Shown: piece after piece, positions 240 to 61,445 of the stretch | How positions within the stretch are numbered: position 1 is the first letter of the stretch | Layout of the letters: every line of letters starts with the position of its first letter | Assembly (NCBI RefSeq): GCF_028583425.1 | Contig: NC_072791.1 | Location: forward strand, 15,767,868-15,831,867 | Direction of reading: 5' to 3' | Length of the DNA stretch: 64,000 nt | From: Eublepharis macularius | Lineage: Eukaryota; Chordata; Lepidosauria; Squamata; Eublepharidae | Position numbers and translations under genes: made by a program | The notes under the pieces: model-generated | Database searches by the model: none | Seen by the model: the letters and a program-made list of their open reading frames with translations, nothing else | Told to the model about the DNA's origin: nothing

Positions 240-1630
240 CTGCAGCTGAAATTGCAGACCTATGACATCACTTGCTTCATAATCTCAACTGTGCAGAGGG
301 CAAGCTCATCTACATCCTCGGGAACAACGCTGACACCATCGTGAGAGAGACTGGCGAAGGAGGTGCAGTGGTTGTCATGAACGATTCTAATTAAAGCAAA
401 ACAGTCAAGAGGAATCAGTGTATAAACAGTCCGCTACAAAAAGAACACTGTGATAGAGGTCGGTAATTGCAAGAAGTTACAATACAAAAAGTATGTTCTT
501 ATCAATTATTATGTGCGTATTTTTATAAATAAATAATCCAGCGTACAATACGTACAATCCAGCCAACATACATGTACAAATCCCAGCCTCATTGTTACGT
601 AGTGTTATATGCAGGTAAATATAGCTCAAGTACAGTCAATTAAAACTTGAGCACATCATGTTAAGTCCAAACACAACAAGTATTCTAAAATCCTTTCCTT
701 TAATCTTCCTCCTTTCTTGACGAGCTTCTGGGTTATTACTCGTTTCGGAGTCTTCAGAAGAGGAATGAATACTTATAAATCATGCCGATATCTGAACAGT
801 CATAGAGCTAATAGTCACAACTTCTTGTATTTAGTGACCTTTATCACAGTGTTCTTTTTGTAGCTTGACAATTCCAATTAAAAACAGTAACCCAAGAGGG
901 CAGCACTCTAATCCCGACTTCTGCAGGACTGTTATTTTCAGACCCCGCTGAGCGATATGATAAGGAATTTCACAACATGTAGGAGAAACTTCCTCCCAGA
1001 ACACAGGGACACACCTTGGATACACCACAAGTACATGGATCAAACAGGAGTCTTCTGTTTGCTGGCCAAGGTCCACAACGTGGACATCACATTGTCTCAG
1101 GAATTGGTATCTTCACTGGTGGAGTGTCTGGCTCCATGAACTCTGTCCTACAGCTCCGTGCATTCAGCACTCCTAGTTATTTGCAGAATTCTTCAAATTT
1201 CCTGAGGAAAGTTCTGTCTGATGGTGAGCTTCGTAAAGGTACTATTCTGGCTACCACGGATCCACACTAAGAGGAAATAAACTTATTGGGAATGTCCACA
1301 ACTATCTCAAAGTTGGGGATGCTAGTATGCCAATGTATTAATGGCAAACTTGGAATTATGCTTCCTCTGTACCTGTCCCAAGTGCCTCTCCCTTATTTGA
1401 GATTCACTGATGATACTTTTATCCTCTGGACTCAGAATAAGAAGACCCTGGAGAAATTCCACGAGGACTTGAACTTCCACCCCATCACCAAAGTGAGCTT
1501 CGACCTATCCGTATACCAGATCCAGTTTCTGCTTAACAATATAATAACCATACAAACATCACTTTCTACCAGAAGCCTGCTGAGTGCTGCATTTCCCTCT
1601 ATGCTTCTAGCTACCCAAATACCACACAAT
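240..1630 (+). mobile_element. Penelope-like retroelement, decayed reverse transcriptase region
   Basis: Translations resemble Penelope/Neptune-type reverse transcriptases. An N-terminal stretch near 300-390 contains GGAVVVMNDS. A middle stretch near 1010-1260 contains HIVSGIG and SYLQNSSNFLRK, and a stretch near 1390-1520 contains the catalytic-type FTDDTFILW. Penelope-like elements are retroelements with a GIY-YIG endonuclease, distinct from LTR elements; no endonuclease domain was seen. The reading frame is degraded throughout and another inverted-arm element (433-864) interrupts it. A sequence near 2133-2157 recurs inside the palindromic insertion at 2701-2888, so the element's outer region may reach about 2250. 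This is an old fossil copy; the family name rests on remembered motifs. Confidence 0.75.
433..864. mobile_element. Inverted-arm element inserted in the Penelope-like remnant
   Basis: The left end GCTACAAAAAGAACACTGTG (433 on) is repeated in reverse complement at the right end (about 842-864), and the match continues inward for about 45 bases. The interior is AT-rich and carries, on the minus strand near 740-765, CTGAAGA then GAAAC, a hammerhead-like spacing seen in other palindromic elements here. Similar AATTAAA-containing sequence lies just outside both ends (381-411 and 869-900), possibly a flanking duplication. I infer a non-autonomous Penelope-like unit; a MITE is the alternative. Confidence 0.45.
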
Positions 1631-1631
1631 C

Positions 1632-2012
1632 CATTGTCCCCAACCTTTTTGAGCCTGCGGGTACCTTTGGAGTTCTGATATAGCATGGTGGGCTTAGCCA
1701 CAAAATGGCTGCCAGAGGAAGCAGAGCCAGCCACAAAATGGCTGCCAGAGGAAGCGGGGCCAGCTACAAAATGGCTGCCGCAGCTTACCTTCAGTCACAC
1801 AGTGAAGATCGTTGTGATGTGGTGGCAGCTCCAGCCAAAGCAATAGTTTCTTAGAAATCTACACAGCCAATCAAATTGCCAGTGGCCAGTCAGAAGACTT
1901 GCTGAGCAAAAGCCCCACCTGGTCCTGCCCACTATCTAAAAACACTTGGCAGCAGGAAAGATGTCAGCGGGCACCATGATGCCCATAGGCACCATATTAG
2001 AGGCCCATGGTT
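1632..2012 (+). mobile_element. Non-autonomous hAT-like DNA transposon
   Basis: The left end (TTGTCCCCAACCTTTTTGAG) resembles the widespread reptile hAT terminus that begins CAGTGGTCCCCAACC. Inside are three tandem copies of a unit containing CACAAAATGGCTGCC (1698-1770). The right end near 1970-2010 carries GGGCACCAT and a diverged terminus. There is no open frame. Confidence 0.5.
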
Positions 2013-2611: not shown

Positions 2612-3023
2612 TAGGGTTGCCGGCCTCCAGGTGGTAGCTGGAGATCTCCCGGAATTACAATTGATCTCCAGGCAACACAGATCAGTTCCCCTAGAGAAAA
2701 TCAAGATGGGTAGCCGTGTTTTTCTGTAGCAGTAGAAAAGAGCAAGAGTCCAGTAGCACCTGTAAGACTAACACAATTTGTGGGAGGCTTTCGTGAGTCA
2801 GCTCACTTCTTCAGATAACATGTTAGTCTTATAGGTGCTACTGGACTCTTGCTCTTTTCTACTCCAGGGTACCTGTCTAGATTGGTTAAGAAAATGGTTG
2901 CTTTGAAGGGTGAACTTTATGGTATTACACTCCACTGAGGCTCCTCCCCTCTCCAAACTCCACCTTTTCCAGGCTCCACCCCCAAATCTCCAGGAATTCC
3001 TCAACCTGGGCCTGGCCACCTTA
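2612..3023 (+). mobile_element. hAT-like TIR element (TAGGGTTGCC family), itself interrupted
   Basis: It begins TAGGGTTGCCGGCCTCCAGG and ends in a diverged complement, GGCCACCTTA. It is flanked by the 8-bp duplication ATGGCAAC (2604-2611) and ATGACAAC (3024-3031); 8 bp is the hAT hallmark. It has no coding capacity. The family's body includes GATCAGTTCCCCTGGAGAAA, seen many times in this window. A palindromic element (2701-2888) sits inside it. Confidence 0.7.
2701..2888. mobile_element. Inverted-arm element, family 1 (Penelope-like tail)
   Basis: The arm GAGTCCAGTAGCACCTGTAA (from about 2747) is answered in reverse complement near 2820-2850, around a centre near 2795. AGAAAA occurs at both insertion edges, a probable short target duplication. 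The outer sequence TACCTGTCTAGATTGGTTAA recurs in reverse complement at 2133-2157, beside the Penelope-like remnant, which supports the family link. Confidence 0.6.
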
Positions 3024-5002: not shown

Positions 5003-5213
5003 CAGACGTAAAAAGTCCAGTAGCACCTTTACGATTAACCAACTTTATTGAGGCATAAGTTTTCGAGAACCACAGCTCTTTTCGTCAGATGCATCTCATC
5101 TGACGAAGAGAGCTGTGGTTTTCAAAAGCTTACGCCTCAGTAAAGTTGGTTAATCGTAAAGGTGCTACTGGACTTTTTTGCAGCTACAGACTAACACAAC
5201 TAACACCTCTGGA
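5003..5213. mobile_element. Inverted-arm element, family 1, symmetrical copy
   Basis: GTCCAGTAGCACCTTTACGA (from 5015) is mirrored by its complement at about 5152-5172. The centre is near 5095, where two CATCTGACGAA-type motifs meet. The right arm has CTGACGA and a hairpin but AAAA where GAAA is expected. Outer sequence GCAGCTACAGACTAACACA is typical of this family. Confidence 0.7.
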
Positions 5214-8030: not shown

Positions 8031-8034
8031 AGTA

Positions 8035-8197
8035 AAGAGTCCAGTAGCACCTTTAAGACTAACCAACTTTATTGCAGCATAAGCTTTCGAGAACCACAGC
8101 TCTCTTCGTCAGAGAGCTTAGTCTTACAGGTGCCACTGGACTCTTTACTATTTTGCAACTACAGATTAACATGGCTAACTCCTCTGGAGCTATTGCG
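8035..8197. mobile_element. Inverted-arm element, family 1, asymmetric
   Basis: A full left arm (minus sense: hairpin plus GAAAGCTTATGCT complement, 8038-8115) meets a short right arm, CTTACAGGTGCCACTGGACTC (8132-8150), followed by the typical outer sequence ACAGATTAACATGGCTAACTC. Confidence 0.65.
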
Positions 8198-8860
8198 CAT
8201 TATGCGTTTCTCACTGGGCAGCAACATGTTCCATGGCAACTTATCAGGTCCACCTTGCTCAAACGATGCCTCCCTGCTTCACACTGTGTGGTAACCCTTT
8301 CAAAAGCTTCCCTTACTGCCACTGGCTCGGGAGTGGGAAACAATGAGAGAAAGAAAAGATAATGCGTGCTGGGTTAAGAACAGCGAAGCTTATTTATGCA
8401 TAGAAATGAGAAGGTGCTGTTCTCCTTAATGCTGTTTCAAGAATTATGTGCGCACTACGTTATCAGGAAATTAACCCACTGCTTTTAAATTTGCAAGTTT
8501 GCTCTCTGTCCAGAACAATTATCTGTGTGCGTATTCTTTATAAATTAGGGGAAATTAAAATGAATTTATGAGGAGGCGGTGCACGTAAGAGGCTGGAAAT
8601 TCTTGTCCCTGCCGACCAAGTGCACCCGAGGACCATCTTTCACATACTTCTTCCACTCTTCCTCCAAAGATCTCAGGTCAGAGAACCTCGTTCTCCCATT
8701 CCCGTAAAGCTGAAGTCCAGTCTTGTACTCGCCGTAATTTCAGTGGTGGTCCTCTGCTTTGGATGCTGAGTTAAGAACCACTTGCACAGAGGAAGATTTT
8801 CAAACATATTTCGTCACACATACAAACTTTTTATATAGTCTGTCAATGTTGGTATGCCCT

Positions 8861-9072
8861 GAGCTGGATAGCCCAAGCGAGCCTGATCTCATCAGATCTC
8901 AGAAGCTAAGCAGAATCAGGCTTGGTTAGTAATTGAATGGGAGACCTCCAAAGAAGACCAGGGTTGCAGGGGCAGGCAATGGCAAACCACCTCTGTTCGT
9001 CTCTTGCCTTGAAAACTCCACCAGAGGTCACCATAAGTCAGCTATGACTTGACAGCACTTCCCACCACCAAA
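8861..9072 (+). repeat. 5S-rRNA-derived SINE, full length
   Basis: CTGATCTCATCAGATCTCAG and GAAGCTAAGCAGAATC form the 5S-like head, followed by GGCAAACCACCTCTG, CTTGCCTTGAAAAC and a tail CATAAGTCAGCTATGACTTG. Internal boxes look like a 5S-type pol III promoter. Confidence 0.85.
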
Positions 9073-14934: not shown

Positions 14935-16192
14935 CACGGTATGAAAATGGGTGGCGCTACGGGAACAGATGTCCACCCAACATCCTTTGGTGTATGGCGT
15001 CCCTCGGCAATTCTTTCCCCAATGCTATTTAACATCTATATGCACCCCCTTGCCCAGGTGGTCTGTAGCTTTGGGCTGGGTTGTCACCAGTATGCTGACG
15101 ATGGCCAGCTCTATCTGTTAATAGACAACCAGTTAGATGCTGCCCCGAACTCTTTGGCCTGGTGTTTGGATGCTGTGGCATAATTGTTGTGTCAGAGTCG
15201 CCTGAAGTTGAATCCCCAGAAGACGGGGGTTCTGTATCTGGGTCGTGGGGCGACGGAATTGGGAATCCGGCTCCCAGCCCTCGACGGAGTGCAGCTACAG
15301 CCTTCATCGACAGTGAAGAGCCTGGGTGTGCTCCTGGATGCCATATTTTCTACGGAGGCCCAGGTTTCAGCCCTTGCCAGATCTGCATTTTTTCATCTTC
15401 GGCAGGTCAGGCTACTGGCACCCTATCTCTCGCCCCAGGACCTAGCTTCTGTGATCCATGCAACGGTCACCTCTAGATTGGACTACTGCAACTCGCTCTA
15501 CGCTGGGCTGCCTGTGGCCTTGACCCGGAAATATCAGTTGGTCCAGAATGCGACAGCACACGTCCTTACGGGGACGCCATTTAGGGCTCACATCCACCCT
15601 GTACTACGCCAGCTACACTGGCTCCCAGTTGAGTTCCGAGTCCAGTTCAAGGTACTAGTCTTAGTGTTTAAAGCCTTTCACGGACTGGGACCTGCATACC
15701 TATGGGACCGCCCCTCCCACTATGCCCCCTGCAGGGCCTTGCACTCTGCGGATAAACAGCTTCTGGTGGTCCCCGGACCAAGGGACATTCGGCTGGTCTC
15801 AACTAGGGCCAGGGCCTTTTCTGCCCTGGCCCCGGCCTGGTGGAACGCGGAGAGCCAGGCCCTTTGGGACTTTTTACAGTTCCACAGGGCCTGCAAGATG
15901 GAGCTGTTCTGCCGGGCCTTTGACTAGGGGCCAGCTCTTGTCCCCTCTTCTTACCGCCACATCCTCCTTTTGCAGCCACCCTAGAGTTACATCATGGCGG
16001 TACGTGTGGTTGTGGTGACTAGTGGCCAGATTTGTTCGGTGGCACCTGGATTTTTATGCTGTTGATATAAATTGTGTATCAATATTGGGTTTTTATATTA
16101 TTTATGTTTTATTGTATTTTTAATAATATGTTTGTTGGAAGCCGCCCTGAGCCCGCTTGCAGGAAGGGCGTGGTATAAGTAGAATTAGATGG
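14935..16192 (+). mobile_element. L2-clade LINE, 3' half
   Basis: Reverse transcriptase sequence: PSAILSPMLFNIYMHPLAQ, then YADDGQLYLL (the YADD catalytic motif) in one frame, and from 15184 a 247-residue open stretch with LKLNPQKTGVLYLG, LDYCNSLYAGLP and LHWLPVEFRVQFKVLVLVF. These are typical of the L2 (Jockey superfamily) RT C-terminus. A stop and a frame change near 15180 separate the parts, so the copy is dead. The 3' end shows GAAGCCGCCCTGAGCCCG and ends in simple repeats, as in other L2 copies. Confidence 0.8.
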
Positions 16193-16356: not shown

Positions 16357-16548
16357 GTGTATATGTACCATCAAGTTGCAATCGACTTATGGCAATCCCA
16401 GCAAAGGATTGTCAAGGCAAGTAAGAAGCAGAGGTGGTTTGCCAAAGCCTTCCTCTGCAGAATCTTCCTTGATGGTTGCCCATCCAAGTACTGACCTTGC
16501 TTAACTTCCAAGATCTGATGAGATCGGGCTATACCATGTTGCCTTCCC
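16357..16548 (-). repeat. 5S-rRNA-derived SINE
   Basis: Reversed copy: on + ACCATCAAGTTGCAATCGAC is the tail, and TTGCTTAACTTCCAAGATCT and GATGAGATCGGGCTATACCA give the 5S-like head. Confidence 0.75.
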
Positions 16549-16561
16549 TCCATGCTAGAGC

Positions 16562-16684: not shown

Positions 16685-16702
16685 GTCAAACTCTGAGATC
16701 TC

Positions 16703-16808
16703 TTTCGGTGCTACACCTCTGAAGATGCCAGTCACAGCTGCTGGCAAAACGTCAGGAACTACAATGCCAAGACCTCGGCGTTACAGCCTGGAAAATCCAC
16801 AACAACCA
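16703..16808 (+). mobile_element. Inverted-arm element, family 2, single arm
   Basis: One arm only: CTGAAGATGCCAGTCACAGC, then a hairpin partner, AAAACGTCAGGAACTACAAT, and the end CCACAACAACCA. The same arm occurs twice, head to head, at 21610-21836 and 41081-41359. Confidence 0.65.
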
Positions 16809-16809
16809 T

Positions 16810-18658: not shown

Positions 18659-19690
18659 TAGGGTTGCCAGCCTCCAGGTGGTGCCCCAAAAAAGGAGAGA
18701 GCCACGGAAAGAAGCAATCCAAAACAAAAAACCACAGCTGACTTACTATTACAGTTCTTAAAGATACAGTGAGAACAAATTCCACCTTCAAGGAACTTCT
18801 TTATACAACAAAATAGAATGGTCAGTCAGTAGCAGAAGGCAAAGATTGTTCACAGCAGCCAGCTAATAGCATCATACATTTCATACATTTCAAAGTGCAA
18901 TTGTGCCTGTAAACTTCTATTTTCAATTGCAAGTGCTAGCTTAAAAGAACATCCTGTTTCCATGTACGAGTTCATGAGCCTATGAGCGAGAGGCCGTTGA
19001 GCTTTGAAACTGATATGTGAAGATTTTCGATATTGTTCCTGGTAACTGCCATGAAGAAGGGGTAACGGAAACAGGATATTTCTCGCTAGCAAACCCGTTG
19101 CAGTTACTAATGATATGTGAATTGCATATACATTGATTGTTTACAAAACCTTGTATGTACATTGATGAATTTGCAGTCTGGATTATACTACATTTTGGAT
19201 TGAATATTGTATAGATTATTGTCTGGTAAGAAGGAATTGTTCTTTTAAGCTAGCACTTGCACTTTGAAAATAGAAGTTCACAGGCACAATTGCACTTTGA
19301 AATGTATGAAATGTATGATGCTATTAGCTGGCTGCTGTGAACAATCTTTGCCTTCTGCTATTGACGGACCATTCTATTTTGTTGTATAAAGAAGTTAGTT
19401 GAAGGCGGAATTTGTTCTCACTGTGTCTTTAAGAACTGTAATAGTAAGTCGGTCTCGGTTTTTTGTTTTGGTTTGGAGCCTCCGGGTGTTGGCTGGAGAC
19501 CTCCCAGAAGTACAACCAATCTCCAGGCCACAGAGATCAGTTCCCCTGGAGAAAATGGCTACTTTGGAGGGTGGACTCTATGGAATTATACCATGTCGAG
19601 GTCCTTTCCCTCCCCAAACCTCCCTTTCTCCAGGTTTCACCCCCTAGATCTCCAGGAATTTCCCAACTTGGAGATGGCAACTCTGTTGCT
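18659..19690 (+). mobile_element. hAT-like TIR element (TAGGGTTGCC family) split by a 795-bp insert
   Basis: The left end TAGGGTTGCCAGCCTCCAGG (18659) and the body from 19478 (GGCTGGAGACCTCCCAGAAG, CAGTTCCCCTGGAGAAAATG, ending near TTGGAGATGGCAACTCTG) form one element of about 240 bp once the insert at 18683-19477 is removed. Confidence 0.7.
18683..19477. mobile_element. Long inverted-arm element (family 3), probably Penelope-like
   Basis: About 230-base arms face each other: 18718-18955 (AACAAAAAACCACAGC, AGTGAGAACAAATTCC, GCTGGCTGCTGTGAACAATC complement) and 19225-19474. About 265 bases of unique spacer lie between. The spacer contains ATGAAGAAGGGG, GGAAACAGG and ATTTCTCG (19050-19085), an arrangement like the hammerhead-type motifs of the other families. 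The insert is bracketed by GCCTCCAGGTGGT (18670-18682) and GCCTCCGGGTGTT (19478-19490), 11 of 13 identical, a probable target-site duplication. No coding region is left. Confidence 0.6.
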
Positions 19691-21513: not shown

Positions 21514-22228
21514 GGTGTGTGTGTGTGTTAGGTGCCATCAAGTTGTCTCTGACCTGTGGTGACTCTGTGAATGAAAGACCTCCAGAATGTCCTATCATTA
21601 ACAGACTTGGTTGTTGTGGGTTTTCCGGGCTGTATTGCCGTGGTCTTGGCATTGTAGTTCCTGACGTTTTGCCAGCAGCTGTGGCTGGCATCTTCAGAGG
21701 TGTAGCACCAAAAGACAGAGATGCCAGCCACAGCTGCTGGCGAAACGTCAGGAACTACAATGCCAAGACCATGGCAATACAGCCCGGAAAACCCACAACA
21801 ACCATCATTCTCCGGCCGTGAAAGCCTTCGACAATACATTAACAGACTTGCTCAGATCTTGGGGAACATGGCTTCTTTTATTGAGTCCAACCATCTCAGT
21901 TTAGGTCTTCCTCTTTTCCTTCTGCCTTCCACTTTTCCTAGCATTATTGTTTTTTCCAGTGAGGCTTGTTTTCTCATGATGTGACCAAAGTACGATAGAC
22001 TCAGTTTTATCATTTTAGCTTCTAGGGAGAATTCAGGCTTGATTTGATCTAGAATCTACTTATTTGTCTTTTTGGCCATCCATAGTATCCACAAAACTCT
22101 CCTCCAGCACCACATTTCAAATGAATCCATTTTCTTCCTGTCAGCTTTCTTCACTGTCCAACTTTCACCTCCATACATAGTAATGGGGACTACTTAGTTT
22201 GGATTATCTTGATCCTGGCTTTAGCAAC
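21514..22228 (-). mobile_element. BovB (RTE) LINE 3' end, interrupted
   Basis: Reversed BovB: (TG)n tail at 21516-21530, CTCTGACCTGTGGTGACTCT, then after the insert AACAGACTTGCTCAGATCTT, TTCCTAGCATTATTGTTTTT, GATTTGATCTAGAATCTACT and on to about 22228. It is the longest BovB piece in the window. Confidence 0.8.
21610..21836. mobile_element. Inverted-arm element, family 2, with 14-bp target duplication
   Basis: GTTGTTGTGGGTTTTCCGGG starts one arm and its complement CCGGAAAACCCACAACAAC is in the other. The right arm continues to GCCTTCGACAATA, which the left arm lacks. CATTAACAGACTTG flanks it exactly on both sides (21596-21609 and 21837-21850). Each arm carries the hairpin GCCAGC...GCTGGC followed by GAAACGTCAGG (left-arm copy diverged). 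Confidence 0.8.
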
Positions 22229-23681: not shown

Positions 23682-23885
23682 GAGCCGATTCCACACAGCT
23701 TACCTGAAGCCGGGACATTGCGGATCATGACGGAAAAAATGCGGAAGATCGCGTTTTCTTGCGCGAGTTTTGCGCGACGTCGCGCAAAACTCATGCGAGA
23801 AAACGCGATCTTCCGCATTTTTTCCAGCATGATCCGCAACGTTGCGCAACGTCCCAGCTTCAGGTAAGCCATGTGGAATCGCCCT
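23682..23885. mobile_element. CpG-rich near-perfect palindrome (MITE)
   Basis: The left end has CCGATTCCACACAGCTTACC and the right end has GGTAAGCCATGTGGAATCG. Arms of about 95 bases match almost throughout, meeting at TTTTGCGCGACGTCGCGCAAAA (23768-23789). CpG density is far above the flanks. The transcript would form a long hairpin. Confidence 0.7.
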
Positions 23886-24205: not shown

Positions 24206-24871
24206 GATGTCTTCTTTTGTTGCCTCGCTCAGAGAAAATCCTTGATTTGGAAAGTGTACTTATATATGCAAGTGGGTCTTGTCTCTTGAGGTCATCATGA
24301 ATGGAAAAGGGTCAGATCTCAAATCAATTTAAAACCATTAAAGTAGCAAGGTACTAATGAAAAACTATTGCTATTGCATCAAGGAGAAGATTAAAATGGA
24401 TGGTCGCAGACATTTTGCCGAGCCTTTGCCGTAAGATATGGGAGAAACAAAAAAGAACCTACTCTTAAAATTCCTTTGTTGAAAAAGTAAACAAAGAGAA
24501 CAGACTTAAGTCTTTCCGAAGAGATTTCCTTTTTTAAAATAAGACTGCTTCTGTCCATTCTGAGATCATGAAAAGGCTTTGCAAAGGGATAGTGTGTCAG
24601 GTGTTATAACGGCGTGTCTACACTACAGATATAAATGGGTTTAACAATGAATTCCTCTTCCCAGAGACCCCTGGAAACAGTGGTTCTGTCAACAGATGCT
24701 CCCTAACAGAGAAACCTCAGTACTTTTGGCAAACTGCAGTTCCCAGGATTCGGTGAGGAAAGCCAAGGCAATGAAGCTGGTATAAAATGGATATATTGGT
24801 GATGTAGAACTGTCCTAAGTGTGCCTTTTTTCTAAGAGGTTATCACCTGGAGAAACAAAGTTTAATTTTCA

Positions 24872-27660
24872 GAAACAAAAAATGCAAGTCCAAAGTATGG
24901 AGGAGTCCGCTAAAGAAATTCAGAGGGAGCGTATGCAGCCGTTAGAAGATCCAAAGAGAGAAAAAACCGTCCCTGCAAATGAGGGCCCAACCGAAAAGGC
25001 CTCTGTCTTTTGCTTTAAGAAAAGGAAGAAGCCCTGTATAGAGGGAATAGACAAAAACGGGGACCGTGAATCTGAATCACTAAACCAGCATTCCCGCACT
25101 GTGTTAAGCAGTGAGGCAGAGGAGTCAAAGCCATCTTGGACAACTGGAGGTGCCTGGTTGGCCTTCAAACGTCTTGTAACTCTGAGGAGGCGTTCCAAAT
25201 CTGCGTTGAAGAAAGACCCACAGCTAGACTCCCGGGTGCAAGTGGAGACCCGTGTCGAAGAGTCTAGCTTTCCACATTTGCCTAAGGAAAAGGCTAGTTC
25301 TGGGCTTAAAATTCCCTGCCTCAGGTTCTCCAGACGCAAGAAGAGGTCTGGTCATTCTGAAATAACAGAGGAACTAGACCAGGGCGAGAAAACAAATGAA
25401 ACAACAAGCCTTTTGAATAACAAAGCCCACAATGAGCCCGAGCGCTTAACGGTGGACAACTCAGTGAGCAATGTGCAGTCCTGTAGCAGAGCTCCTGAAG
25501 AGACTGAGGGTGGTGTGGAAATTACCCATGGAGACATGATTATCTCCACAGGAGAGAACACACTGGCGGTGGAGATGAGGCCATGCGCTGATCGATACAC
25601 AGACTGCCTCATTCAGTCAGAAATAATCCATTCTGAAACTGTGCTGGAAACTGAAGAGGAGAAGCAAATCTTCCAGCTACATCACGGAAGCCTGTATGGA
25701 AGTCCTGAAGAGGCGGAGAAGAAGGTAATGGACTTCACAGTTGAGATAGGGCCTCTTGTTGTGTGTCAAGACCTGCCAGGAGATGAATCTGAAGTCTTCG
25801 AAGTACAAGATACGAGTCCCAGGCACACCCAAGAGGTTGAGTTGGAAACATCTGAAAGGAACATTAAAATTGGGGAAGAGACTAATGATGCCGGGGAAAG
25901 ACATTCTGTGGAGGTCCTCCTTCACTGTAGCCCGTCAACGTTGGCAGATGAGGCTTTGAGCTTGCCAAACTGTTTTGCCGAGAAAGCAAAATCTGAAGAA
26001 AATAAATTACCTCATGGAGCGGGCATTGTTATTACTATCACTGAAGCTGAAGAATCCCAGGATGAAGAGGAGCTCAGCCTGGCCTGTGAATATTTCCCGT
26101 TTCCCAATACGAGCAAACAGAAAGGGAACAAAAAATCAAGCAAAGGTGTCGATTCTCGGGCGGGGAGCAGTGGTCGCAAGAAAGAAGGCGAATCTGATTC
26201 CCAGGTTCCCTCGCCCTTAGGCACCAACGATCAAGAGTGCTGGACTGCGGAGCAACACGAGTCACTGCTGATCGAAACGGCCGCTTCGCTTGTCAAGGCG
26301 GCCATTCAGTCATCCGTGGAACAACTTGTGAATGAAATGGCCTTGGAGCAGAATAAGCAAAACAGTTTCCTCTGATCGCAGAAGTTCTCTGGGTCTTCTG
26401 GACCGTTCCTGTCACGAGGTGACATTAGGCAACTGCCTCACGTGTTGGATTCTGAGTTCCAATAATGGGAGCAAATTATCTACTGATTAGATTGTTGCTG
26501 GTGGGGAGGGGAATTTCTGCCTCAGGTGCTAAAATTAATCGGTCTGACCCTGCCAGTATTTATGCTGTAGGAAGATTTAGGGAACTTGGCATGAAAGAGC
26601 AGAAACGGCCGTAATCTTTGGATGTTTGCCGTATCTGTCAGTAGCTTAATTTTGCATGTTAGTGAAATGGATGCATTTTGTCTGTCCAAAAATGGAATTT
26701 AAGAATGGGGGCTCATTGCTGCATGGTACCACATGCTGATGGTTTGTTCTGTACGGTAGATTTAGGAAAGCCAGTTGCTTCCCCCCATTCCCCTGACCAT
26801 CCATTTATTTTGCTTGCTGGAACCATCCAAACCATAGGCTGGTCTGCATCATCAAGTGGCTAGGCAGTCCTAAATCGGAATTGAATTTTCGGGTCCTCCA
26901 AAGATCAAACCGGGACTGAAATGGACAGTATCTGCTATCCCTGTAGAAAGTGGCATGAAAGCCCTGGAAGGGCTGAGAAGGCCTTGGAAGCGTTAGTTCA
27001 GCCAAGCAGCAGTTTGATTTGGAGAAGTGCAGCCTTCCACAGTGTTATTCTTTCAGGGTGTGCCGAAATGAGTAAGAGTTTCTCCAACTGAGAAGAAAGA
27101 CCTTGATCCAGGAAACGGGGTCTGTGTGCATAACCCTAATCCTTCCACGTGCCTCTCCGTGCACATTCTACATGCTCCACCCAGGCCCTTTTGAATCGGC
27201 TCTTGATGCAGATGGGAATATATTCCTCCCCACCAAAACATTTGGTATCACCCGTTGCTTATGCATGTTCTACAGCACAGCCAGTGTACTTCAGAGGAAG
27301 TCCCTGGACCTTGCTTGGAGTATAAAGCACTTAATGTTGTCCCAAACCACCAGGGCAAGAGAAACAGATGCTCGGAATGGAGTGTTCCTTCACCCAGCAG
27401 CATGTCCTGCATTCCAGTTACATAAACCAGCAGAGATACTTAGAAATGGAAGTGGTAATCTGCATAAGTTTGTAGGAGAGGATTCTGGGTACTGTGTGGG
27501 GATCTGCCTGGCGTACAGGCCCTATAAGGATATGTTCGTGCCGTAAGGCCAAGGCTGTTTCTGGCCCCACCCTGGAGTCGGTAATGTTAATTAGGGTGGG
27601 CCAGAGGGGTCCCTGTTGCTGGCACAATGATCACATCATGTTCTGAGAGTTAATAAAGTA
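24872..27660 (+). CDS. AKAP5: A-kinase anchoring protein 5 (coding exon, CDS 24897-26375)
   Basis: AKAP5 (AKAP79/150) is a membrane scaffold that tethers PKA, calcineurin and PKC near synaptic receptors and ion channels. I chose the ATG at 24897 because MEESAKEIQ aligns with the human start and leaves the right spacing to the first basic region; this gives 492 residues. The acceptor TTTAATTTTCAG at 24871 starts the exon. Membrane-targeting basic regions: A (residues 34-47, ASVFCFKKRKK), B (85-106, GGAWLAFKRLVTLRRR) and C (132-151, GLKIPCLRFSRRKKR). Cys39 and Cys141 match the known palmitoylated cysteines. A calcineurin PxIxIT-like site is at 376-382 (GIVITIT, Gly for Pro). The PKA RII-binding helix is at about 457-482 (LLIETAASLVKAAIQSSVEQ). 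Human AKAP5 is 427 residues; the acidic middle is longer here. An AATAAA at 27652 is a plausible poly(A) signal. Confidence 0.95.
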
Positions 27661-35684: not shown

Positions 35685-35806
35685 AGATGGGTAGCTGTGT
35701 TTTGTCTGTCTGTAGCAGTAGAAAAGAGCAAGAGTCCAGTAGCACCTAAAATTCGTCAGTCATATAGGTGGTACTGGACTCTTGCTCTTTTCTCCAGCTA
35801 CAAGCA
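35685..35806. mobile_element. Inverted-arm element, family 1, shortened
   Basis: GAAAAGAGCAAGAGTCCAGT (35717 on) is mirrored by ACTGGACTCTTGCTCTTTTC (35774 on) with only about 35 bases between. The central motifs are lost. Confidence 0.65.
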
Positions 35807-36019
35807 TACCTGTATGACATACATGTTTTCAAACACCCAGAGCATCTATATTTTTAAGTGTCTATTTAACAACAAAATACTTAGCTCAATACCTAACACG
35901 TGACCAAGCCATCTAGGGTGCAACAGGGAAGAAGATATGAGCAGCAAATCCAAGTTTACCATCACATGATGAGTGAAAAGACGCCTACAGTGAGAAAGAT
36001 CACATTTGGTATAGGAAAA

Positions 36020-36255
36020 AAAATCAAAAAGAGTCCAGTAGCACCTTTAAGACTAACCAATTTTATTGTAGCATAAGCTTTCGAGAATCAAGTTCTCTTC
36101 GTCAGATGCATGATCCGAACTGGGGATCATGCATCTGACGAAGAGAACTTGATTATCGAAAGCTTATGCTACAATAAAATTGGTTAGTCTTAAAGGTGCT
36201 ACTGGACTCTTTTTGATTTTGTTACTACAGACTAACACGGCTAACTCCTCTGGTA
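36020..36255. mobile_element. Inverted-arm element, family 1, best-preserved copy
   Basis: Two nearly identical arms face each other about a centre near 36121. The minus-sense arm (36074-36105) reads CTGACGA, A, GAGAA, a 6-base loop, TTCTC, GAAA, then GCTTATGCTACA: a hammerhead-like core with stem II and a 2-bp stem III. The + arm (36135-36175) has the same core with one stem mismatch. Outer ends CAAAAAGAGTCCAGTAGC and GTGCTACTGGACTCTTTTTG match perfectly, followed by ACTAACACGGCTAACTCC. Confidence 0.75.
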
Positions 36256-36725
36256 TAGGAAAAAGTGTGCTTTTGCTGCCACCTTCTGGCCAATGAAGTG
36301 CTAAACACTTAGCAATGCTGTTAAATAAGTCTGTTTACTACTCATGCGTAGAGGCCATCTGTTCAGGGCCACATCAGGTGTTTTTCTTATCTGATCGGGA
36401 ACTCAAGTCTGCATCCAGACGTGAGCTTTCTGCTGCACCCTTCCCCTCGACCAGCTGAGTTAGCAGCCCTGTTCGCATGTTATAATGAACGTACGTACAG
36501 TACATGCTCCATGTATGCGCGGACATCTGTTTGTGTGAAAGAGCCCATGCATGTTCACCTTACAAATGAAGCCAGAGACATGGATCAATCTGGGGTTTAA
36601 ATCACATGTTCAGCTATATATGCACTGAATGTCACATGAAAATTACTTAACAGATGTATTTAAAAAATCAAGCATGCACTGTATGTATGTTGTATGTGTA
36701 TTCACTGTAACTTGTGAACAGCTGT

Positions 36726-37928: not shown

Positions 37929-38027
37929 GTGGGCTCTGAAAACCAGAGCAGAGTGTCTACCAGTGTCAAGAAAGGACCCAAGGGTGTATTGTGGGCTTCC
38001 CGGCATCTATTTGCTTCTTCAACACAA

Positions 38028-38192
38028 TTTCCAGAGTGTAAGCTTTTGAGAGTCAAAGCTCCCTTCTTCAGACGCAAGGGAGCGTTGACTCTCGAAAGCT
38101 TATACCTTGAACATCTTGTTGGTCTCTCAAGTGCCACTGGACTCCATCCCTGCTGTTCTACTGCAGATCAACATGGCTACCCACCTAAAATC
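38028..38192. mobile_element. Inverted-arm element, family 1 (CTCTCGAAAGCTT variant)
   Basis: AAGCTTTTGAGAGTCAAAGC faces GCGTTGACTCTCGAAAGCTT across CTTCTTCAGACGCAAG. The right side continues CATCTTGTTGGTCTCTCAAG, GTGCCACTGGACTCC and AGATCAACATGGCTACCC. Confidence 0.65.
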
Positions 38193-40790: not shown

Positions 40791-41080
40791 AATTTAAAAA
40801 TTTTAAGGTGTCATTTGGTAAAAGAAACTTTAGTTGTCAATTACATAAGTTTTGTAATTGGTTTGATTAAATCTACATACAAATAAACTAGTTCTAAAAA
40901 TAATTTTTAGATTATGCAAGGGCGTCTTACAGAAGCATCTCCTTAAAAGAGGCATTCTCTCCAATGCGAGAGACGTGTGCGCCATCTCTCCAGACTACCT
41001 CATTCACCTGGCGAGCCTTTTCAATCAAGATTTTAAACCAATCAATGGAAATAAACAATAGGGTAAACGTTGTAACTGTA

Positions 41081-41359
41081 TTGTCGAAGGCTTTCACGGC
41101 CGGAGAACGATGGTTGTTGTGGGTTTTCCGGGCTGTATTGCCGTGGTCTTGGCATTGTAGTTCCTGACGTTTCGTCAGCAGCTGTGGCTGGCATCTTCAG
41201 AGGTGTAGCACCAAAGGATAGAGATCAGCGGTGACACTGAGAGATCTCTATCTTTTGGTGCTATACCTCTGAAGATGCCAGCCACAGCTGCTGGCGAAAC
41301 GTCAGGAACTACAATGCCAAGACCACGGCAATACAGCCCGGAAAACCCACAACAACCAT
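41081..41359. mobile_element. Inverted-arm element, family 2, with perfect 13-bp target duplication
   Basis: CGTTGTAACTGTA lies at both edges (41068-41080 and 41360-41372). The left arm begins TTGTCGAAGGCTTTCACGGC and runs inward through GGGTTTTCCGGGCTGTATTG. The right arm is its complement but stops at CACAACAACCAT. The centre (41215-41260) contains GATAGAGATCAGCGG and GAGATCTCTATC. Each arm carries CTGAAGAT, GCCAGC, loop, GCTGGC (or near it), GAAACGTC. No coding capacity. Confidence 0.85.
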
Positions 41360-41369
41360 CGTTGTAACT

Positions 41370-41920
41370 GTACTTAAACCAGTTTTAGAAACAGACACTG
41401 TAAACATCTTTCTAGTAACTGCTATTAAATGAAGAATCCGCTTTGAGAAGCTTACTGCATTCTTGTACCTTTACAAGCAATGAGAGTCCTCTTCTTCAAC
41501 CAGACATCTAAATACTTAACTTAAAAAAAACACCCTATAGGAGACATCTCTACGTACATGCCCTGTGGCTGAAACAGCTGGCTAGGGTCCACTTCAAGGA
41601 ATAATGCTGGGAGCACTCAACCTGTGGCGCGAACAAATGGAAGAGCATTATACCACAGCAGACCTCCGCTCCGCCTAACCCAGTGTGGTCTCTTCTGACC
41701 AACCGCGGCTTGGCAAGGCCTGAACCCAACATCTTTCTGCAAAACTGGCCCTTGTGATCCTTTTAACCAGAGATGCCAGGGGGTGAGCTTAGGGGCCTTT
41801 TGCATTCAAAGCATGTGCCCGAGCACTCGACACTCGTCACCTCTTCTCACACACACACATCACACAGGTTGCCTGGCTAGCATTTCACAGCAATGTGTTC
41901 TGGCACCAGGGGATGTACCC
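41370..41920. other. Intergenic stretch with a SINE trace
   Basis: 41785-41850 (CATTCAAAGCATGTGCCCGA) resembles a reversed second-family SINE head. The rest is unassigned. Confidence 0.35.
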
Positions 41921-42737: not shown

Positions 42738-43878
42738 CTATTCAACCAGTATGGTGTCAATGTTGTCTTGTGAGAGATCGGGGTCTAAGATGTTCTGGGA
42801 TTCTAAATGACTCTGAGCGACAGCGATGCTTTTCACCCCACTCTGCGTCCAACCGTCACCGTACGGCTGAAACTTTGCGGTTGCCGCGTTGCCAAGCCTC
42901 TGACATCGGCTGTATTTGAAGTGCTTCCCTTTGTGCAAATACATGTGTTCCAGCAGCTGGCTCTTCCGGAGAAACTTGTGGCCACAGACGGTGCAGCTAA
43001 CCTTTCTCTTCCGGGAAAAAGAAAAGTTGCAGTTCAACTCCATGGGCTCGGAGTCTTTGGAAACCAGAGACAGCTGACCAATGGGTAAGGCCTCCAAGTT
43101 GCTGCGGGAGGGAAGCTCCGACCGGCGCTCGTTCTCTTTCCGGAGGAAGGAGCCGAGGCGCTGGACTTCAGCGGCTTCACGGTTTTCGTTAAGCGGCTGG
43201 ACTTGGCTGAGGTCATTGCTTTCCAGGATCGAGGCTGGGACCCCAAACGGCAGGGACCCCGACACGTGAGTGAAGAGATGTTCCCGCAAAATGCCCCGGG
43301 ATTCAAAACGCTCCCCGCAGTACTGACATAAATGGGCTTTGGCGTTCGCTTTTGAAAACGCTGGAACCCCAATATCCGGGGAGGACGAGGTGTGGCTCTG
43401 GGACACCACAGGCTCCGGGTCAGCTGTCTCCTGCTTTATCGTCACCGGTTGCTTCGTTAGGTCCTCCGCAGGTTTGGCGGCCCCCTGAGCAGGAGGATGA
43501 GAAAGCTGCTGGTCCAACGAGCCGTCGTCCAGCCCAATCGCCAGAGAGAGCTGAAGCTGCGGGTGGTCACCCTGGCTAGCAGTTCGGCTGCTAAGACTCG
43601 CCAGGCTTTCTTTCATCTGAAGGGTCTCCTTGACCGTCTTGTGGGTGGTGGAGATCTGAATCCCGTACAGGTTTGAGGACTGCACAGTCTCCGGAGAGAA
43701 CATCTGGTTCATTTCGACCGCCAGGTGGGACAGGTAGTCCGCGTGCAGGAAGCGGATGCCTTCCTCCAGCCGGGAATGACTGACGGTTTGTTTGGGTCCT
43801 TTTCCAGTGTACATGATGTGGAGCAAATAGCTGAATATGTCAGGCTGGATGTCTGTTGGCTGAATCTTTATGCATTCA
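42738..43878 (-). CDS. ZBTB25: ZBTB25 last coding exon (zinc fingers)
   Basis: ZBTB25 is a nuclear BTB/POZ zinc-finger repressor. This exon starts after the acceptor (minus sense TTTGTTTCAAGCAG) at 43878 and completes a Ser codon split as AG|T. It encodes [20 protein letters not shown] (end of the BTB fold), then a long linker with [18 protein letters not shown] and the sumoylation-like VTIKQE. Two C2H2 fingers follow: residues 242-262 ([21 protein letters not shown]) and 353-373 ([21 protein letters not shown]). It ends NIDTILVE and TAG at 42740-42738, as in the human protein. With the first coding exon the product is 437 residues, against 435 in human. Confidence 0.97.
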
Positions 43879-44741
43879 CTGCTTGAAACAAAGACGAGAG
43901 TTAAGTAAGCACATCACACAGTACAACCTCATTCATCTAAAGGTGCCAATCGTAACACTGAACATGTTCAAAATCATCTTTTTTTTCTCTCCAGGGCCGA
44001 GTTCTGGAAAAAAAACCTCACTGTGAGCAGTACCAATTGGCTAGCGTCTGCGATTTCAAAAATCTACTTTCCTCCTAATCTCTGAATGACCTTTAATACA
44101 TCTTTTTTTAAAAAGGCAAAAAATGAATGTTCAGATTACTGGACATACATGAACCCCTTAAACAATATAATAAAGATAGCCAACCTGCCCGAAAGAAGCA
44201 AAAAAAAAAAAGGGCTGGATTAATGGCTGACCCAGTGTTCGCTTACTAAAATATACATCTATTATGAAAACGGCAAAGTTGAAAGCAAGGAACCAAATTA
44301 GACTTCACCTTAGGTTGCCCATCAGTCTTTACCCTAGACCGCCTATGGGAGAAGGTTTCGTCTAATTTTCAGGAACTGGACTGCCTTGCTGGATAATACC
44401 CAAAGTCCATCTCATTCATCATCTGGTACCTTTTGGGGGTGGGGAGGTTCTTCATGCCAACCAGCAGAGTATATATGACAGCGTATATCTGATCTCCCCC
44501 TGCCCCAGTTACTGCATACGGACAGTGTCCTTAAACTAACCTACGATTATCCAGAGGCATTTATGGAATTCCAGGCTTATGAAATACTGCTGGACCTCAG
44601 TTTAATAGACTGGGCATAAAGGTACTACCTAGCCTTCCTAAATCTGAAAAAAGAAGCTTGACTCATGAAAACTTAAACTCTGGAAATATCATTGGTCTTT
44701 AAGGTGGCTGAAATCTTGCTCTCCTAAATATGACCTCCTAG

Positions 44742-49339: not shown

Positions 49340-49505
49340 TGAGTCCAGTGTGACCTCTAAGACCAATAATGCGTGAAAGCTTTCGAGAGTCAGCGCTCCC
49401 TTCTTCAAACTCTTGGGGTCTGAAGTTTGCACCCCGAAATCTTGTTGGTCTCCTAAGTGCCACTGGACTCAAACCCTGCTCTTCTACTGCAGACCAGCAC
49501 CTAAG
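49340..49505. mobile_element. Inverted-arm element, family 1 (CTCTCGAAAGCTT variant)
   Basis: GAGTCCAGTGTGACCTCTAA (49341) and GAAAGCTTTCGAGAGTCAGC face a right arm ATCTTGTTGGTCTCCTAAGT, GCCACTGGACTC. The right side's central part is diverged. Confidence 0.6.
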
Positions 49506-50720: not shown

Positions 50721-50807
50721 ACTATTAGCACAAGCAGGTCTTTGCCTGCTGTGCGTTAATTTCTGCTTGCAGGGAGTTTTCCATACAGAGCATACCCTGA
50801 TAAGCAA

Positions 50808-50893
50808 AATCAAGAGTCCAGTAACACCTTTAAGACTAACCAACTTTATTGTAGCATAAGCTTTCGAGAATCACAGTTCTGTTCGTCAGATGC
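50808..50893 (-). mobile_element. Family-1 arm, single
   Basis: AAGAGTCCAGTAACACCTTT, TTATTGTAGCATAAGCTTTC, GAGAATCACAGTTCTGTTCG and TCAGATG: the arm in minus sense, truncated before its partner. Confidence 0.7.
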
Positions 50894-51459: not shown

Positions 51460-51499
51460 CTTTCCAGGTTTCCTGAGCCCAAGTTCATGAGGCAAAATA

Positions 51500-51592
51500 G
51501 TAAAGAGTCCAGTAGCACTGTTAAGACTACCCAACTTTATTGTAGCATAAGCTTTCGAGAACCACAGCTCTCCTCATCAGATGCATCGAGCT
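51500..51592 (-). mobile_element. Family-1 arm, single
   Basis: AGTAAAGAGTCCAGTAGCAC, TTTATTGTAGCATAAGCTTT, CGAGAACCACAGCTCTCC and TCATCAGATGCAT: minus-sense arm without partner. Confidence 0.7.
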
Positions 51593-61227: not shown

Positions 61228-61445
61228 TCAGGTGGTGGTGGAGAGTGCTATCAACTCATAGCTGGCTTATGCTGACCCCTGGCAGGGTTTTCATGGCAAG
61301 AGACTAAGAGAGGTGGTTTGCTGTTGCCTACCTCTGCAACCCTGGTCTTCGCTGGAGGTCTCCCATCTAATTACGAACCAAGGCCAACCCTGCTTAGCTT
61401 CTGAAATCTAATGAGATCAGGCTCACCTGAGCTATCCAGATGAGA
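61228..61445 (-). repeat. 5S-rRNA-derived SINE, full length
   Basis: Reversed: CAGGGTTTTCATGGCAAGAG, GAGGTCTCCCATCTAATTAC, CCCTGCTTAGCTTCTGAAAT and GAGATCAGGCTCACCTGAGC. Confidence 0.85.

Follow-up and report, generated by a model that had tools for sequence, protein, structure and literature searches.

The question raised by this locus is what the palindromes that recur in it are, and by what route they came to be inserted. Within a stretch of 64,000 nucleotides of the Eublepharis macularius genome, referred to here as the window, a palindrome at 36021-36250 appeared to contain the core of a hammerhead ribozyme in each arm, and the original prediction took such arms to be terminal-repeat units of Penelope-like elements (PLEs).

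Palindromic insertions in the window

The stretches 36017-36116 and 36124-36223 are 98% complementary and form a near-perfect inverted repeat. Along each arm (minus strand 36109-36071, plus strand 36131-36169) we confirmed the predicted order of CTGACGA, a single unpaired A, a stem II hairpin and GAAA, followed by GCTTATGC; GAAAGCTTATGC comes after the 5-bp hairpin. Two details had to be amended: the stem II loop is of 5 nt (CTTGA) rather than the 6 bases first given, and the 5-bp stem GAGAA/TTCTC ascribed to each arm holds for the left arm, while the right-arm hairpin has one mismatch (TTATC). Since a 14-bp duplication, TGGTATAGGAAAAA, flanks 36021-36250, the entire palindrome is one insertion. 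The coordinates of this and the other copies, named family 1 and family 2, are collected in Table 1, where sites 1 and 2 are the two reverse transcriptase (RT) start sites at which arms end, site 2 being reached through a tail.

Table 1. Palindrome arms, hammerhead-like motifs, duplications and related features in the window
Positions	Strand	Feature	Basis
36007-36020		Left target-site duplication, TGGTATAGGAAAAA	14-bp shared word; first bases ambiguous with element end
36021-36116	-	Left arm of head-to-head pair; its 3' end lies at start site 1 of the RT	Inverted repeat, family match and duplication
36071-36109	-	Hammerhead-like motif, left arm: stem I GCAU/AUGC, CUGACGA, unpaired A, stem II GAGAA/UUCUC, GAAAGCUU^ (predicted cut at ^)	Model R1; PAc register
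36124-36223	+	Right arm	Inverted-repeat search
36131-36169	+	Hammerhead-like motif, right arm; predicted cut between 36165 and 36166; stem II mismatch at 36155	Model R1
36224-36250	+	Tail: right arm continues to RT start site 2	Family match and duplication
36251-36264		Right target-site duplication, TGGTATAGGAAAAA	14-bp shared word
5010-5211		Head-to-head pair of family 1 with ends at site 1 (left) and site 2 (right); duplication TTATTTTTYATA, imperfect	Ends and duplication by eye
8034-8186		Head-to-head pair of family 1 with ends at site 1 (left) and site 2 (right); duplication CTATTGCRCATTAT	Duplication by eye
2711-2863		Older family-1 pair, A type; left arm with tail, right without; no duplication seen	By eye
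35704-35809		Older family-1 pair, internally deleted, without hammerhead core; left arm with tail	By eye
38020-38175		Family-1 pair, F type	Inverted repeat, family match and R1
49373-49412	-	Family-1 hammerhead-like arm, degenerate	R1
50805-50893	-	Family-1 single arm	Family match and R1
51493-51586	-	Family-1 single arm	Family match and R1
41081-41359		Head-to-head pair (L063) of family 2 (Poseidon-type) with ends at site 2 (left) and site 1 (right); 41068-41080 and 41360-41372 are the duplication CGTTGTAACTGTA	Family match and pair analysis
21610-21836		Head-to-head pair of family 2 with ends at site 1 (left) and site 2 (right); 21596-21609 and 21837-21850 are the duplication CATTAACAGACTTG	By eye; outside the 28 counted pairs
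16701-16809	+	Family-2 single arm, end at site 1	By eye
1271-1678	+	Remnant of a broken PLE reverse transcriptase (frame read from stop to stop)	57-column stretch 46% identical to L032 RT

The family-1 layout had been said to recur at other positions of the window, and a model of it, R1, matched at or near each of them, giving 14 matches at E<=1 in the window (including 5053, 5096, 8077, 38036, 38065, 49373, 50854 and 51545); such matches follow by construction, since the family-1 arms used to make R1 include several of the window's own. The minimal form predicted for family 2, CTGAAGA-T-GCCAGC...GCTGGC-GAAAC, was located at 16701-16809, 21608-21809 and 41106-41363. The arms are a genome repeat family and chance is not at issue; in one genome search the long matches were 96-100% identical. 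In the genome searches the best 40 of 437 to 2571 candidates were scored per query, and therefore young copies dominate the sample.

Other features lie in the same window. A 518-aa frame at 24819-26375 has a WSK motif (PF03832), and we take it by name to be AKAP5-like; a 391-aa frame at 42738-43913 has C2H2-like fingers by eye and no Pfam match at E<=0.001, and the neighbourhood of the two presumably resembles the AKAP5-ZBTB region. Rfam matches of 5S rRNA type at 8855-8974, 61329-61443, 2256-2370 and 16452-16554, two of them above the gathering score, are perhaps 5S-derived SINEs. A 247-aa frame at 15184-15927 is LINE-like by eye, with no Pfam match at E<=0.001, and two other long inverted repeats (23715-23842 and 18715-19475, 91% and 94% complementary) have no match to family 1 or 2.

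The arms are ends of two Penelope-like elements

The arms are the terminal (pLTR or ORF-start) regions of two PLEs. For family 1 this follows from a genomic copy, L032, in which an inverted arm, an RT (PF00078), a GIY-YIG domain (PF01541), a 3'UTR and a family-1 arm stand in this order. Pfam scores were 2e-11 for RVT_1 and 1.9e-5 for GIY-YIG, and one stop codon lies between the two frames. An RT together with a GIY-YIG endonuclease is the canonical make-up of PLEs as described in PMC11167929. Among the matches listed, the best RT relative is a protein of the leopard gecko, 94% identical across 84% of the query, and the 120 relatives listed include gecko, turtle, frog and invertebrate proteins, some of them with GIY-YIG. 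Family 1 is the 3' end of a PLE. Some genome copies of its arm reach further upstream, and genome copies present the PLE hallmarks of pLTRs, inverted copies and an optional tail, to which the pairs of both families add target-site duplications. The RT remnant in the window gave no match at E<=0.001 in a Pfam search.

Judged from its layout, family 2 corresponds to the beginning of the ORF in a Poseidon-type PLE and resembles PAc, the Poseidon element of Anolis carolinensis as described in PMC11167929. In both, the AUG lies at stem II and the motif inside the ORF start; GAAACGUC is found with the cut at ORF +29 and a CCU/AGG stem I; one base after CUGANGA is unpaired, which in PAc is the U of its AUG; and the start site is at about +111 to +118, with a tail of about 33 nt. 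For PAc, the RT start is given as 111-118 nt into the ORF (PMC11167929). Family-2 site 2 falls at ORF +115 to +119 and site 1 at about +83 to +89; site 1 would be the other start of PAc, given that the tail is described in PMC11167929 as the stretch between two starts. The reading of the arms as PLE terminal-repeat units with a hammerhead-type motif is thus borne out by L032 and by the match of family 2 to the start of PAc. Unlike PAc, family 1 has a motif that is not coding, a four-base stem I, AGCU in place of ACGU and no AUG at stem II.

A retrozyme, that is, short non-coding tandem repeats with a canonical type I motif, was also considered and rejected. Metazoan retrozymes, as presented in PMC7229834, are alike in their type I hammerheads, with dimer action in the amphibian ones, and differ in being short non-autonomous tandem repeats, whereas family 1 is joined to an RT and an endonuclease in L032. 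As a separate observation, the family-1 3'UTR (L015:1240-1330 and copies) holds an older captured head-to-head pair of hammerhead-like arms with the centre CAGATGCATCTG, and therefore palindromic insertions can join the element.

A minimal hammerhead in the PAc register

When placed in the PAc register, family 1 reads GAA-A15.1-NN-U16.1-H17^ (GAA-A15.1-G-C-U16.1-H17^), and its putative stem I pairs the four bases that follow the cut with the four that precede CUGANGA. This changes several points of the original prediction. The cut, formerly placed after UA (GCUUAUGCUA), is now predicted at GAAAGCUU^AUGC. The bulged A after CUGANGA had been called unusual, and PAc likewise has an unpaired base there (PMC11167929). 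Stem I, said not to be obvious, is present in this other register.

We aligned all 62 distinct sequences among 109 arms picked by a pattern that allowed one mismatch per block and favoured pairing in stem II and not in stem I. In this pattern-picked set, most columns of the CUGANGA and GAA core are at least 90% conserved. Stem II, favoured by the pattern, is paired in 94.2% of cells and 3 of its 5 pairs have changed on both sides, as had been anticipated if the stem covaries among copies; stem I is paired in 63.7% of cells, with 3 of its 4 pairs changed on both sides. A complete stem I was found in 19 of the 62 (GCAU/AUGC in 9, GUAU/AUAC in 7, and GCGU/AUGC, GUGU/ACAC and GUGU/GCGC in one each), and L082, from a separate arm listing, is a second GUGU/ACAC arm. 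Cells with a two-sided change numbered 71 against 23.1 in shuffles, none of 500 being as high, in a test that counts sequences and with shuffles that ignore relatedness. Sliding the partner lowered the paired cells from 80.6% to 21-54%. The number of pairs with a two-sided change (170 of 500 shuffles as high) and of pair types (71 of 500) did not exceed the shuffles. On these alignments, stem I and stem II covary, the compensatory steps representing few subfamily events. By subfamily, young arms have GCAU/AUGC, the A type has GUAU/AUAC with C as H17, and the F type is a mixture; many F-type arms are without stem I because the head-to-head junction adjoins it, as seen by eye.

A15.1-U16.1 and H17 are present in the family-1 subfamilies as GAAAGCUU or GAAAGCUC. 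The small stem III proposed earlier, GC-TTAT-GC, is present at 36021-36250 and is not conserved: its inner pair is standard in only 18 of the 62 distinct arms, for which reason we rejected it, and its outer pair is standard in 55 of the 62 without varying. Family 1 has no conserved stem III, and the self-complementary AGCU remains. This is consistent with other PLE hammerheads, which are described in the review PMC6155905 as minimal motifs without helix III located in terminal repeats; hammerheads with a short helix III act as dimers according to PMC7229834. Each arm would contain a minimal PLE-type hammerhead, with a stem I of four bases (family 1) or three (family 2) and a stem II hairpin after one unpaired base. 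Since self-complementary AGCU or ACGU replaces a stable stem III, it probably works as a dimer or with the help of protein. In vitro, the PAc hammerhead is reported to cleave only with its protein added (PMC11167929); for family 1, cleavage is a prediction.

No match to the Rfam hammerhead models was found in family 1, including in searches with 101 and 121 bases, nor in family 2. This covariance-model search had been named in advance as a check; its negative outcome stands, yet it does not discriminate, because family 2 also fails although its close relative PAc has tested as a hammerhead. Rfam matches of the palindrome to mir-5592 and other microRNAs lie far below the gathering score, and we rejected these readings. 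Single-arm folding returned the hammerhead layout in one of three representative arms, none clearly more stable than its shuffles (z of -1.04, -0.47 and 0.31), and such weak folds are in keeping with the lack of helix III and the dimer action described in PMC6155905 and PMC7229834. Perhaps the family-1 core is a dead relic, conserved only through the youth of the copies or through a role in RT binding. The missing Rfam match and the weak folds would agree with this, as would the report that PAc insertion in vitro is independent of hammerhead cleavage (PMC11167929). We consider a relic somewhat unlikely, given the two-sided changes of stems I and II between subfamilies and the core positions conserved mostly at 90% or more.

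The left arm of another locus (L008) starts exactly at the predicted cut, and that of L137 two bases on; L136 also has an arm that begins at or within a few bases of it. Arms beginning there look as if cleaved RNA were the template, in a small sample in which L135-L138 came from a query starting at the cut.

Resolved family-2 pairs end once at each start site

For family 2 we used a query that stops short of both start sites and analysed the best 40 loci (a first 30 and ten further places), a partner being counted only if it came to within 15 nt of site 1 or beyond. Among the first 30 loci, 22 had a head-to-head pair within the fetched flank and 8 did not. In all 22, one arm stops at site 1 and its partner at site 2; the site-2 arm is the left one in 15 pairs and the right one in 7. 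The ten further places gave six pairs, again all one-of-each and with site 2 always on the left, and four loci without a partner. The rule therefore holds for 28 of 28 resolved family-2 pairs from 40 loci, and the same site was never used twice. If each arm chose independently, one-of-each would be expected in at most half of pairs, however often either site is used, so that its occurrence in all 28 has a probability no higher than 2 to the power -28 (about 4e-9).

The unpaired arms of the 12 loci without a resolved partner end six at each site, and none of the inverted pieces in these loci ends away from sites 1 and 2. Inverted arms in L040 and L108 are cut by the fetched edge, and the arms of L040, L043, L045, L046, L054, L106, L107 and L112 pass the reference start, so that a partner may lie further off. 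L108:422-904 also holds a direct tandem of two family-2 arms: one stops at reference 365, and the one after it starts at 304.

Duplications of at least 9 bp were found around 20 of the first 22 family-2 pairs, and of 11-14 bp around all of the next six. Outside the selected stretch, both arms have rare variants in common in three cells (one variant in two pairs, another in one), a number reached in 9 of 20000 permutations; four single-arm variants occur in the same columns. The junctions vary, with 26 distinct arm-start pairs among the 28. In 13 of the 28, both arms start in the reference interval 285-325, at or near the self-complementary AGAGATCTCT.

Family 1 mostly agrees with the same rule, with exceptions. 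In a set of 30 loci (L001-L030) the right arm had been selected for the tail, and the left ends alone are informative; the set comprises 14 pairs, the other 16 loci being singles. In 12 of the 14 the partner ends at site 1, and the arm tables show L013 (two nested pairs) and L025 (identical to L034) to be one-of-each as well. L030, listed as a single, has a left arm that ends 11 nt short of site 1. From 20 unselected loci, six are one-of-each with duplications: the pairs L123, L131 (the outer left arm of which ends at site 1), L133 and L134, and two with left remnants, L120 (12 nt) and L124 (8 nt). The left arm of L130 runs into the tail and then off the fetched stretch. In L129 the left arm stops (at 441) about 35 nt short of site 1, L117 (749-791) and L121 (973-1005) contain short inverted pieces whose ends lie at neither of the two start sites, and no duplication was found in these three; no partner was seen in the other 10 of the 20. 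Four loci picked for truncated partners (L135-L138), with right arms selected for the tail, are one-of-each with duplications by eye. Differences between the arms of family-1 pairs are mostly private to one arm, the one shared change being a recurrent C-to-T at a CpG, and several pairs begin near ATGCAT.

A model for the origin of the palindromes

The palindromes are for the most part single insertions. In a set of 31 pairs (20 of family 2 and 11 of family 1) the duplications are of 9 to 16 bp, 23 of the 31 at 12-14; the set leaves out pairs below 9 bp and L012, and shared words may include a few arm bases. The target boundaries look symmetric, with AAC before and GTT after the duplicated stretch (middle A in 19 of 31 and middle T in 18 of 31, as raw counts), which would be expected for a dimeric nuclease. 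From the outward 3' ends and the duplications, it follows that the 3' ends of both strands would have primed cDNA across a staggered break with 3' overhangs. In vitro, the PAc protein is reported to cut both strands and to extend both (PMC11167929).

We propose that the endonuclease makes a staggered break with 3' overhangs of 12-14 nt, and that each 3' end may then prime reverse transcription at a start site of its own (site 1 for one end, site 2 for the other), probably on the same RNA. The two antisense cDNAs would afterwards be joined head-to-head, often near the self-complementary stretch just upstream of the hammerhead; this route is suggested since antisense cDNAs can pair only at self-complementary stretches. 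If one RNA serves both ends and each start site is used once, the one-of-each rule follows. We regard it as likely that the palindromes arise at integration by two-ended target-primed reverse transcription of PLE ends with minimal hammerheads, probably from one RNA. The full form of the proposal is that a single RNA provides the cDNA with which PLEs cap the two ends of one staggered break, that its two RT start sites are each used exactly once, that the tail marks which end used which site and that the palindrome at the pLTR start joins the cDNAs; for this we find the case for and against evenly balanced.

Head-to-head pairs with a palindrome at the junction would also result if one cDNA, or an antisense transcript, folded back on the pLTR-start palindrome and copied itself. 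Such self-priming was proposed for the inverted pLTRs of the Penelope elements of Adineta vaga by authors who favoured it, with an antisense template (PMC3846280), and the shared variants fit the copying of one molecule. A simple fold-back, however, predicts the same end site in both arms, and the different ends in 28 of 28 resolved family-2 pairs, together with the 26 distinct arm-start pairs, make it improbable; we rejected it as a general cause. That two independent insertions, or a recombination between copies, came to lie head-to-head by chance is more improbable still: nested insertions do occur (L013), but in family 2, 20 of the first 22 pairs and all of the next six each lie as a whole inside one duplication, which largely refutes separate insertions.

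A closer relative of our proposal keeps two-ended priming and takes the arms from two RNAs held by a protein dimer, each subunit being fixed to one start site. An AlphaFold2 prediction of a PAc dimer (PMC11167929), the symmetric-looking boundaries (again raw counts) and the few variants that family-1 arms have in common would all accord with it. The rare variants common to both arms in three family-2 pairs speak against two RNAs, unless these came from one source locus or the arms were converted, and we consider this version doubtful. Probably the two ends drew on a single RNA or a single source locus; alternatively, conversion between arms may have produced the shared variants.

Implications for PLE integration

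It is already in print that the terminal repeats of PLEs contain hammerheads, that pLTRs occur inverted and that one of these may have a tail (PMC6155905, PMC11167929, PMC3846280, PMC8969392); in the text of PMC8969392 at hand, inverted pLTRs and 3' extensions are mentioned only as peculiarities. The word hammerhead is absent from the main text of PMC3846280, and the text of PMC11167929 at hand describes neither head-to-head genomic pairs nor a one-of-each rule. In the passages covered of open-access papers on inverted, both-strand or head-to-head PLE copies we found no statement of the rule, and a text search of the literature for the tail sequence found nothing. The later steps of PLE integration are called yet to be validated in PMC11167929, and self-priming is left undecided in PMC3846280. 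The strict end rule, with one end per start site and one duplication around both, makes the question of PLE integration directly testable with purified Anolis protein. With the hammerhead register corrected, the cut site and the compensatory changes to be used in an assay are specified, and the Rfam hammerhead models miss the PLE-type class of motif.

In L1 twin priming, both strands of one break prime on the RNA and leave an inverted segment within one duplication, and the two segments are not known to overlap. Unlike this, both PLE arms here copy the same region from two fixed start sites. If it is true, the capping of both ends of a break from a single RNA and two sites would constitute a mode of integration that differs from both LINE target priming and L1 twin priming.
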